Source of the DNA: Emydura subglobosa
Lineage: Eukaryota > Chordata > Testudines > Chelidae
Assembly (NCBI GenBank): GCA_007922225.1
Contig: ML679961.1
Span: 72,644,890-72,708,889 of the forward strand
Direction of reading: 5' to 3'
Length of the DNA stretch: 64,000 nucleotides
Of this stretch, positions 60,779-64,000 are shown one piece after another (positions within the stretch are counted from its first letter, which is position 1; each line of letters starts with the position of its first letter). The notes under the pieces were generated by a model, which saw only the letters and a program-made list of their open reading frames with translations, was not told the DNA's origin and did not search any database. A program made the position numbers and the translations under genes.

Positions 60779-63700
60779 CTATATCATCTCAACCAGGGCT
60801 TTGTCAAGCCTCAGCTTAAAAACCTCTAAGGATGGAGATTCCACCACCTCCCTAGGTAACCCATTCCAGTGCTTCACCACCCTCCTAGTAAAAAACTTTT
60901 TCCTAATGTCCAACCTAGACCTCCTGCCCTGCAACTTGAGACCGTTGCTCCTTGTTCTGTCATCTGCCACCACCGAGAACAGCCTAGCCCCCTCCTCCCT
61001 GGAACCCCCTTGCAGGTAGTTAAAGGCCACTATCAAATCCCCCCTCACTCTTCTCTTTTGCAGACTAAACAAGCCCAGTTCCCTCAGCCTCTCCTCATAT
61101 GTCTTGTGCTCCAGCCCCCTAATCATTTTTGTTGCCCTCCACTGCACTCTCTCCAACTTGTCCACATCCTTTTTGTAGTGGGGGGCCCAAAACTGGACAC
61201 AATATTCTAAATGCGGCCTCACCAATGCCGAATAGAAGGGAATAATCACTTCCCGTGACCTGCTGGCAATGCCCCTCCTAATGCAGCCCAATATGTCATT
61301 AGCCTTCTTGACAACCAGGGCACACTGCTGACTCATATCCAGCTTTTTATCCACCGTTACCCCCAGATCCTTTTCTGCAGAGCTGCTGCCCAGCTCGTCG
61401 GTCCCCAGTCTATAGCTGTGCATGGGATTCTTCCTTCCTAAGTGGAGGACTCTGCACTTGTCCTTGTTGAACCTCATTAGATTTATTTTGGCCCAATCGT
61501 CCAGTTTGTTTAGGTCACTCTGTATCCTATCCCTACCCTCCAGGGTATCTACCACTCCCCCCAGCTTAGTGTCGTCCGCAAACTTGCTGAGGGTGCAATC
61601 TACCCCATCCTCCAGATCATTAATAAAGATGTTGAACAAAACCGGCCCCATGACTGACCCCTGGGGAATTCCGCTTGTGACCGGTTGCCAGCTAGACATG
61701 GAGCCATTGATCACTACTCGTTGAGCCCTATGCTCTAGCCAGTTCTCTATCCATTTTATAGTCCATTCATCCAACCCATACTTCTTTAACTTGCTGATAA
61801 GAATACTGTGTGAGACAGTATCAAAAGCTTTGCTAAAGTCAAGGTATATCACATCCACCGCCTTCCCTACATCCACAGAGCCAGTCACCTCATCATAGAA
61901 AGCAATCAGGTTGGTCAGGCATGACTTTCCCTTGGTGAATCCGTGTTGACTGTTCCTGATCACCTTCCTCTCTTCCAAGTGCCTTAAAATGGATTCCTTA
62001 AGGACCTGCTCCATGATTTTTCCAGGGATTGAGGTGAGGCTGACCGGTCTGTAGTTCCCTGGATCCTCTTTCCTCCCTTTTTTGAAGATGGGCACTATAT
62101 TTGCTTTTTTCCAGTCCTCAGGGACCTCCCCCTGTTCCCACGAGCTTTCAAAGATAATAGCCAATGGCTCTGAAATCACCTCAGCCAACTCCCTCAGCAC
62201 CCTCGGGTGCATTGCATCCAGCCCCATGGACTTGTGAATGTCCAATCCTTCTAAATAGTCTTGGACCCGTTCCTTCAGCACTGCGAGATGTTCGCCTCCT
62301 TCCCATTCTGTGCCACCCAGTGCAGCAGTCTGAGAGCTGATCTTGTCTGTGAAGACAGAGGCAAAAAAGGCATTGAGTACCTCAGCTTTCTCCACATCCT
62401 CCGTCACTAGGTCGCCCCCCTCATTCTCTAAGGGGCCCACACTTTCTCTAATCTTCCTCTTGTTGGCAACATGCCTGTAGAAACCCTTCTTGTTCCCCTT
62501 CACGTCCCTTGCTAGCTGCAACTCCAATTGCACTTTGGCCTTCCTGATTTCATTCCTGCACGTTCGAGCAGTGTTTATATAATCCTCCCTAGTCATCTGA
62601 CCAAGCTTCCACTTCTTGTAAGCTTCTTTTTTGTGTTTAAGTTCGCCAAGGACATCTTTGTTAAGCCAAGCTGGACGCCTACCATATTTGCTATTCTTTC
62701 TGCACATCGGGATGGTTTGCTCTTGTGCCCTCAATAAGGTCTCTTTAAAAAACAGCCAGCTCTCTTGGGTTCCTTTCCCCCTCATATTAGCCTCCCAGGG
62801 AATCCTGCCCATCAGTTCCCCGAGGGAGTCAAAGTCCGCTTTTCTGAAGTCCATGGTCCGTATCCTGCTGCTCTCCTTCCTTCCTTTCGTCAGGATCCTG
62901 AACTCGACCATCTCATGGTCACTGCTGCCTAGGTTGCCACCCACTTGTACTTCCCCTACCAAATCTTCCCTGTTTGTGAGCAGCAGGTCAAGAAAAGCAT
63001 GGCCCGTAGTTGGTTGCTCCAGCACTTGCACCAGGAAATTGTCTGCAACACTCTCCAAAAACTTCCTGGATTGTTTGTGCTCTGCTGTATTGCTCTTCCA
63101 GCAGATGTCAGGGTGATTGAAGTCTCCCATGAGAATCAGGCCCTGTGAACTGGAAACTATCCCTAGTTGAGTAAAGAAAGCCTCATCCACCTCATCCTCC
63201 TGGTCTGGTGGTCTGTAACAGACACCCACCAGGACATCACTCTTATTGTTCTTGCTTCTAAGCTTAACCCAGAGACACTCAACTGACTTATCTCCAGTTT
63301 CACACTGGACCTCAGAGCAGTCATAGTGCTCTCTTACATACAGTGCAACTCCTCCCCCCTTTCGCCCCTGTCTGTCCTTCCTGAACAGTTTATACCCATC
63401 CATGACAGCGCTCCAATCGTGAGAGTTATTCCACCAAGTCTCAGTTATTCCAATCATGTCGTAGTTTCTTGACTGTGCCAGGACTTCCAGTTCTTCCTGC
63501 TTGTTTCCCAGGCTTCTTGCATTTGTGTACAGGCACTTGAGATAAATAGCCAAGTGGCCTACTTTCACAGTATGAATCGGGAGGCCTCCCCTGCTGCACC
63601 CTCCTCTTTCTGCTTCCTTGCGGTGTCCCTCTTCCCCACTAACCTTCGGGCTTAGGTCCCTGTCCCCCGTAGAAACTAGTTTAAAGCCCTCCTCACTAGG
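60779..63700 (-). CDS. CR1 ORF2 polyprotein: APE endonuclease and reverse transcriptase
   Basis: ORF2 nicks target DNA and copies the element RNA from the nick. The frame is open from 63700 (just after an in-frame TAA at 63701-63703) to the stop at 60779. Numbering from the GTG at 63568 (929 codons): endonuclease with TNARS (catalytic Asn16), ITETWW (Glu43), MGDFN (Asp149, Asn151) and SSDH (Asp217, His218); RT from about 480 with NYRPVSLTS, motif A YLDFSKAFD (Asp577), motif B SGIPQGSVMGPVLF (632-645) and motif C FADD (663-666); then the thumb and C-terminal domain. All catalytic residues are present. The first in-frame AUG is codon 37, inside the endonuclease and past Asn16, so a normal AUG start would give a damaged enzyme; see the frameshift site. 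Whether this copy is active is unknown. Confidence 0.93.
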   Translation of the reverse strand, partial: PSEEGFKLVSTGDRDLSPKVSGEEGHRKEAERGGCSRGGLPIHTVKVGHLAIYLKCLYTNARSLGNKQEELEVLAQSRNYDMIGITETWWNNSHDWSAVMDGYKLFRKDRQGRKGGGVALYVREHYDCSEVQCETGDKSVECLWVKLRSKNNKSDVLVGVCYRPPDQEDEVDEAFFTQLGIVSSSQGLILMGDFNHPDICWKSNTAEHKQSRKFLESVADNFLVQVLEQPTTGHAFLDLLLTNREDLVGEVQVGGNLGSSDHEMVEFRILTKGRKESSRIRTMDFRKADFDSLGELMGRIPWEANMRGKGTQESWLFFKETLLRAQEQTIPMCRKNSKYGRRPAWLNKDVLGELKHKKEAYKKWKLGQMTREDYINTARTCRNEIRKAKVQLELQLARDVKGNKKGFYRHVANKRKIRESVGPLENEGGDLVTEDVEKAEVLNAFFASVFTDKISSQTAALGGTEWEGGEHLAVLKERVQDYLEGLDIHKSMGLDAMHPRVLRELAEVISEPLAIIFESSWEQGEVPEDWKKANIVPIFKKGRKEDPGNYRPVSLTSIPGKIMEQVLKESILRHLEERKVIRNSQHGFTKGKSCLTNLIAFYDEVTGSVDVGKAVDVIYLDFSKAFDTVSHSILISKLKKYGLDEWTIKWIENWLEHRAQRVVINGSMSSWQPVTSGIPQGSVMGPVLFNIFINDLEDGVDCTLSKFADDTKLGGVVDTLEGRDRIQSDLNKLDDWAKINLMRFNKDKCRVLHLGRKNPMHSYRLGTDELGSSSAEKDLGVTVDKKLDMSQQCALVVKKANDILGCIRRGIASRSREVIIPFYSALVRPHLEYCVQFWAPHYKKDVDKLERVQWRATKMIRGLEHKTYEERLRELGLFSLQKRRVRGDLIVAFNYLQGGSREEGARLFSVVADDRTRSNGLKLQGRRSRLDIRKKFFTRRVVKHWNGLPREVVESPSLEVFKLRLDKALVEMI

Positions 63701-64000
63701 TTAGCCAGCCTGTCTGTGAAGATACTCTTCCCTGTCTTTGTTAGATGAATCCCGTCCCTTCCTAGTAATCCTTCTTTCTGGAACAGCATTCCATGATCGA
63801 AGAATCCAAAGCCTTCCCTTCGACACCACCTGCGTAACCACGCATTCACTTCCCCAATGCGACTGTCCCTACCTGGGCCTTTTCCCTGAACAGGGAGGAT
63901 GGACGAGAACACCACTTGTGCTTCAAACTCCTTAATCTCTTTTCCCAGAGCCGCATAGTCCGCAGTGATCCGCTCAAGATCATTCTTGGCAGTGTCATTG
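63676..64000 (-). CDS. CR1 ORF1, C-terminal esterase part (cut by window edge)
   Basis: Continues the SGNH esterase seen in copy 1. From the edge inward the frame reads NDTAKNDLERITADYAALG, then VVFSSILPV, WLRRWCRREGFGFFDHG and GRDGIHLTKTGKSIF, the last carrying the Asp-x2-His block that completes the Ser-Asp-His catalytic set. It ends LVRRALN and stop at 63676-63678. The nucleophile Ser block lies beyond the window. It overlaps the ORF2 frame by 25 nt (63676-63700). No frame break is seen in the available part. Confidence 0.9.
   Translation of the reverse strand, partial: NDTAKNDLERITADYAALGKEIKEFEAQVVFSSILPVQGKGPGRDSRIGEVNAWLRRWCRREGFGFFDHGMLFQKEGLLGRDGIHLTKTGKSIFTDRLANLVRRALN
63679..63685 (-). 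promoter_or_regulatory. candidate -1 frameshift heptamer T TTA AAC
   Basis: The last ORF1 codons are gcT TTA AAC, then the stop TAG. T TTA AAC fits the X XXY YYZ slippery pattern exactly in the ORF1 frame. A -1 slip makes the next codon CTA (63677-63679), which is in frame with ORF2 (111 nt, 37 codons upstream of the GTG at 63568, no stop between). A small hairpin with loop CGAA lies about 23 nt downstream, further than is usual for a frameshift stimulator. Function is inferred, not shown. Confidence 0.55.

Follow-up and report, generated by a model that had tools for sequence, protein, structure and literature searches.

A slippery heptamer conserved at the ORF1/ORF2 junction of CR1 retrotransposons suggests that ORF2 may be read by −1 frameshifting

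How is the second open reading frame (ORF) of a CR1 retrotransposon read when no AUG precedes its endonuclease? The question is raised by one CR1 copy at the end of a 64,000-nucleotide (nt) stretch of the Emydura subglobosa genome (contig ML679961.1). We call this whole stretch the window; coordinates are positions within it, and the junction and every feature given here are on the minus strand. We found that ORF1 ends in GCT TTA AAC TAG, with the TAG stop at 63676..63678. The codons of ORF1 divide the adjoining heptamer TTTAAAC (63679..63685) into T TTA AAC, and the stop is the next codon. ORF2 lies in the −1 frame, overlaps ORF1 by 25 nt, and is bounded upstream by a TAA at 63701..63703. This arrangement had been claimed by the initial annotation, made from the sequence alone, and it was borne out by direct reading. 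As at a frameshift site, the upstream frame carries a canonical X XXY YYZ heptamer and the downstream ORF lies in the −1 frame. The initial annotation numbered ORF2 from a GTG at 63566..63568 (first base 63568). By that count, the endonuclease Asn (YTNARS; 63521..63523, starting at 63523) is indeed codon 16; we take it to be catalytic from the motif of the APE1 and L1 endonucleases. The first ORF2-frame ATG does lie downstream of the Asn, but it is codon 38 (63455..63457, starting at 63457) and not codon 37, as had been claimed.

We found that the junction is the ORF1/ORF2 boundary of a CR1 element, a non-long terminal repeat (non-LTR) retrotransposon. The ORF2 frame runs for 973 amino acids from stop to stop (60779..63700) and comprises a linker, an APE-type endonuclease (PF03372, E value of 2.5e-12; best stretch, residues 65 to 262), and a reverse transcriptase (PF00078, E value of 3.2e-33; residues 543 to 761). 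As expected of a CR1 long interspersed nuclear element (LINE), there are 3′ ATTCTRTG repeats (ATTCTATG; 60694..60709), an octamer type described for CR1 in PMC2612034. The C-terminal part of ORF1 (63676..63999) matches the SGNH/GDSL esterase domain (PF13472, E value of 3.7e-8) and ends in RRALN and the stop; its other end crosses the window edge. The window copy has lost its 5′ end inside ORF1, and the same junction is present in full-length relatives. In one of these, L011, ORF1 has the zinc-finger-like N terminus and SGNH esterase of CR1, the esterase above the cut-off and the zinc ribbon weak and below it. The nearest ORF1 among proteins is from Emydura macquarii (95% identical).

We then asked what other copies in this genome look like. 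A junction query on this 1.93-Gb genome gave 2079 candidate places. Scores were obtained for 40 of them, namely 100% for the window and 97 to 98% for the other 39. Counted by place, we fetched 66 distinct places of the window's clade (clade A), and all but L030 and L036 cover the junction, leaving 64. Most had come up among the top matches with either the junction or ORF2 as query; eight were picked from 110 ORF1 matches, and four of these (L080 to L082 and L084) look older. The heptamer and stop, TTTAAACTAG, were kept in 64/64 places. The lack of the heptamer in other copies had been named in advance as a reason to abandon frameshifting; instead, the heptamer is present in all 64 of these clade A places and in other families. 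The stretch from the heptamer to the Asn has no in-frame stop in any of the 64 (L081 has a one-base gap). We found no AUG before the Asn in 58 of them. Of the 49 best ORF2 places, 39 have the 973-codon frame uninterrupted by a stop, and in L011 and L012, two of the three copies examined whole, ORF1 (329 amino acids) and ORF2 (973 codons) are both open. Clade A is a young and numerous group, and this share of intact ORF2 frames suggests that it has been active in this turtle recently or still is.

An older family in the same genome, family B, has the same junction as its majority state. The 20 junction stretches fetched first held nine clade A copies, ten family B copies, and one place without a junction (L069); 36 of 40 further places (the other four were already counted) brought family B to 46 copies. 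The column majority in family B is again TTTAAACTAG, which is exact in 26/46 copies, and TTTAAAC or TTTAAAT is found in 35/46. The ORF1 sequences of three B copies share 41 to 49% of aligned residues with clade A (methionine and tryptophan not counted). A Pelodiscus ORF1 (P0156) is matched along most of its length at up to 65% by some family B places, versus 51 to 56% for clade A. In eight B copies, the ORF2 frame is retained and no stop interrupts it before the Asn. As a separate observation, L108, L117, L118, and L123 share TTCAAATGAG at the heptamer and are perhaps one duplicated segment, not independent copies.

The initial annotation had asked whether the heptamer is conserved beyond neighboring sequence. 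We found that it is, at the codon level in DNA from one turtle genome and through proteins in other lineages. Using majorities from chosen rows (11 clade A and 18 family B), we found that A and B agree at 40/48 bases from the heptamer on and then at 4/14, so that agreement continues beyond the ORF1 stop. Upstream, it reaches about −25, giving a block of raised conservation at 63638..63710 (about −25 to +48 around the heptamer). Where A and B have identical residues, the same codon is used at 22/28 positions in the last 12 codons of ORF1 and at 159/373 in the rest (pooled Fisher P = 0.0003 over three B copies, which share ancestry, so that the pooled value does not come from independent data). 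TTA accounts for 4 of the 29 Leu codons in L011 ORF1. At its far end (63638 to 63646), the block reads GGTTAGT in young clade A and AGGTAAGT-like in family B (many CAGGTAAGT) and in some older A copies, as read in the window, L060 to L070, and L080 to L082. This sequence matches the 5′ splice site consensus about 40 nt past the ORF1 stop.

To follow the junction into other lineages, we used proteins. Among the best 120 of 254 relatives found with L011 ORF1, 100 have the exact Leu-Asn-stop end, some of them about 35% identical to the query. They come from turtles, lizards (Zootoca, Podarcis, Salvator, Varanus, and Anolis), the snake Erythrolamprus, frogs (Dendrobates and Ranitomeya), Alligator, the ostrich, and many other birds. 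By inspection, three of the other 20 (P0127, P0188, and P0199) continue past ALN and 17 are without the segment. The last two residues are fixed by construction in a 24-member ORF1 subset, which we did not count, and we did not use a Natator esterase-endonuclease model (P0138) as evidence, as its junction segment is missing. For ORF2, we took the best 120 of 440 relatives; in 52 of these, the endonuclease motif is preceded by 60 residues or more. We sought (G/S)(F/L)KL in the ORF2 frame over the 140 residues ahead of that motif (75 residues alone showed 5 models). The motif was found in 31 of the 120, all birds: 25 from Mycteria (stork), three from Limosa, and one each from Theristicus (ibis), Pitangus, and Anas. 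P0113 reads LKL and the other 30 read FKL; typical readings are AHRQSFKLDSKGEGDN in the stork, HGEGFKLEVKGEGDK in the godwit, and EGFKLVSTGDGDL in the window's clade. Where ORF1 ends in ALN-stop and the −1 frame reads FKL, the DNA must have the form T TTA AAY with TA or TG next, and T TTA AAY in birds is thus a deduction from two protein sets. The number of residues from the motif to the endonuclease is 34 in the godwit and Pitangus, 73 in Anas, 91 to 94 in storks, 98 in the ibis, and about 50 in the window's clade, and all of these stretches are open. The Mycteria linkers (P0031, P0052, P0059, and others), at about 92 residues, are alike in sequence and far longer than those of the godwit or turtle.

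How might these features act together? According to our model, some ribosomes reading ORF1 would decode UUA in the P site and AAC in the A site, with the stop codon next. On U UUA AAC they would shift back by one base, re-pair to UUU AAA, and resume decoding in the ORF2 frame at CUA. The product would be ORF1 joined to the endonuclease through a linker free in sequence and length, a predicted fusion of about 1,295 amino acids in L011 (by hand from the ORF lengths). The remaining ribosomes would terminate at UAG and yield the ORF1 protein (ORF1p), which would leave the endonuclease and reverse transcriptase scarce relative to ORF1p. Few −1 heptamers are as shifty as U UUA AAC on mammalian ribosomes, according to PMC5009743. 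The sequence, the frame, the stop, the absence of AUG in most clade A copies, and the conservation across families are directly observed. The heptamer, frame, missing AUG, and cross-family conservation support the ORF1-ORF2 fusion, one of the two outcomes that the initial annotation had proposed (the other was reinitiation at a non-AUG codon), and we think that programmed −1 frameshifting on U UUA AAC probably yields such a fusion in CR1. From the same features we infer slippage itself, its efficiency, and the fusion as a working protein.

Several observations weigh against frameshifting. Ten invariant bases are unremarkable in so young a family, and the invariance of the clade A junction is on that account a clade trait, not a sign of selection. 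Young copies show no bias by codon position in the linker, and its 56 residues in the ORF2 frame, used as a protein query, gave no match at an E value of up to 10 among 9 candidates. The initial annotation had counted ORF2 in another frame as evidence against its reading; ORF2 is in the −1 frame in all 64 clade A places, but only 16/46 old B copies are in frame, with heptamer-to-Asn distances spread over all three frames (16, 14, and 16 of 46). A G-run is an insertion-deletion hot spot in these old copies. When the codon comparison was made with single B copies, the P values were 0.02, 0.14, and 0.04, so that one of three was not significant. The FKL-type motif is absent from 21 of the 52 ORF2 models with at least 60 upstream residues. 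These models look as if they were spliced or shorter, and several (P0029 and P0033) start just past the place of the motif. CR1 DNA was read from one turtle genome, and birds, crocodilians, lizards, and frogs are represented by proteins. Gene models are open by selection, and open frames across lineages are for this reason support and not proof.

The search for a stimulatory structure belongs with these points. The initial annotation had conceded that there is no strong structure at the usual spacing of 5 to 9 nt, and this weakness stands after folding, without a dedicated pseudoknot program. Downstream minimum free energies showed no stable structure (z scores of −0.36 for 83 nt and +1.6 for 153 nt). 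Sliding folds gave nothing, no consensus fold was found for 29 chosen A and B rows, and Rfam gave no match on 63300 to 64000 at an E value of up to 1. We dropped two candidates: a short GGG/CCC plus GACC/GGTT pseudoknot seen by eye, which is too weak and lacks covariation, and pairing of an upstream CTAACC with GGTTAG, where family B has GGTAAG. A linear or unusual stimulator is possible. We lean slightly towards a fuller account in which the CR1 reverse transcriptase would be made as a fusion by −1 slippage on U UUA AAC plus the stop, with a linear or unrecognized stimulator and not a classical pseudoknot, and would have been so since the ancestor of frogs, reptiles, and birds.

Could the ribosome instead stop and start again? 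In termination-reinitiation, the main rival, ribosomes would stop at UAG, and a nearby restart at AUG or at a near-cognate ACG or GTG would give a separate ORF2 protein, as has been proposed for L1 and SART1. In these elements, ORF2 is considered dependent on the translation of ORF1, perhaps through reinitiation (PMC2881922). The claim that no in-frame AUG precedes the endonuclease holds for 58/64 clade A places and fails in most of family B and in sea turtles, and here, too, the evidence counts against frameshifting. In 36/45 family B copies, an ATG lies about 28 codons before the Asn, where clade A has TGC. Close to that position, at 26 codons before the Asn, is the AUG that opens the sea turtle ORF2 models, and a start at either codon would keep the Asn. 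Most bird models carry an M shortly ahead of the endonuclease. In storks, the AUG is mostly 10 residues before the endonuclease motif, and P0097 and P0115 have no AUG between the FKL-type motif and the endonuclease. The six clade A exceptions all have ATG in place of ACG at the same codon just past the ORF1 stop (63668..63670; the fifth codon after the heptamer TTT in the ORF2 frame), and an ATG directly past the stop is also found in some B copies and one duck model. However, reinitiation in clade A would need ACG, which is present in 58/64 places, or another non-AUG codon. In L080 to L082, three of the six exceptions, the ATG may be decay of ACG, because these copies are old and other CpGs in them are gone as well. 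We found no conserved start codon at or just past the ORF1 stop of the kind expected from SART1 or L1: the codon there varies between families (T, K, M, and P), and no AUG position is common to the families seen. Reinitiation also leaves unexplained the fixed Leu-Asn-stop with its heptamer and the FKL upstream of bird starts. We consider it unlikely.

Two other explanations fare worse. The Leu-Asn end might be kept for the sake of the ORF1 protein, with the heptamer as a by-product and ORF2 expressed otherwise; the esterase C terminus does have many other fixed residues in invariant columns. Against this, codon identity at shared residues is raised at the ORF1 end, TTA is a minority Leu codon in L011, and the A/B nucleotide agreement extends past the ORF1 stop. 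We regard this explanation as very improbable. Least probable of all, to the point of being nearly negligible, is an accidental heptamer within the short overlap of a dead copy. The window copy is 5′ truncated, and TTTAAAC alone is common in the window (16 found versus 13.5 expected). In a first-order Markov simulation with the element's own composition, any canonical in-frame heptamer occurred in the 25-nt overlap with a frequency of 1.5%, one of a chosen set of 12 heptamers taken as efficient with 0.6%, and TTTAAAC at a single set position ahead of the stop with 4e-5. The signal at a single junction is modest and partly after the fact, and it is suggestive only; the argument rests on conservation. 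The heptamer, stop, and frame are identical in all 64 covered clade A places, and the heptamer and stop are the family B majority, so that chance is already contradicted.

We also looked for CR1 elsewhere. A second clade A copy in the window (1002 to 3468) has an internal deletion of about 800 bp that takes out the ORF1/ORF2 junction, and none of the other CR1 copies found in the window retains it. Among genome contigs, we found one CR1 match of 28 residues, without the junction, in a bacterial metagenome-assembled genome (MAG) that had no match to crane ORF1; there was no CR1 match among viral contigs. The contig of this Eubacterium sp. MAG starts with the CR1 ORF2 fragment (L001:3-86), probably host contamination, and a protein labeled Klebsiella pneumoniae (P0176) is a CR1-type ORF1.

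Translation of the second ORF in bicistronic LINEs has long been an open question, and L1 and SART1 are thought to initiate anew. If our model is correct, the CR1 clade would set the ratio of ORF1p to reverse transcriptase in a retrovirus-like way, which a short reporter could test. Database CR1 ORF2 proteins, begun at whichever AUG was found, would be misannotated at the N terminus. In birds, crocodilians, turtles, and snakes, no other transposed elements are as abundant as CR1, according to PMC4316615. We found no description of a CR1 frameshift junction in the portions of the literature searched, a scope that does not take in the founding papers, Kajikawa 1997 and Haas 1997, which may discuss the junction.

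The element studied here has the organization of the CR1 LINEs of chicken and turtle: a zinc-finger/esterase ORF1, an endonuclease-reverse transcriptase ORF2, 3′ repeats of the same type, and closely spaced ORFs, a spacing reportedly named in the very title of the 1997 Haas paper. Its second ORF sits on a bicistronic LINE RNA and relies on ORF1 to be read, as in L1 and SART1. In contrast, these two are held to initiate anew, SART1 at UAAUG and L1 independently of AUG, and the relevant parts of PMC2881922 and PMC5009743 make no mention of an overlap with a slippery heptamer for either. HeT-A, a Drosophila telomeric non-LTR element, is likewise said to need frameshifting (PMC5009743), but there the shift serves gag, and HeT-A is without a reverse transcriptase. 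The coronavirus ORF1a/1b junction differs in that CR1 has a stop directly after the heptamer, no pseudoknot was found, and CR1 is a LINE and not a virus. Nevertheless, CR1 shares with it both the −1 direction of the shift and the heptamer itself, U UUA AAC, which PMC5009743 names for infectious bronchitis virus.

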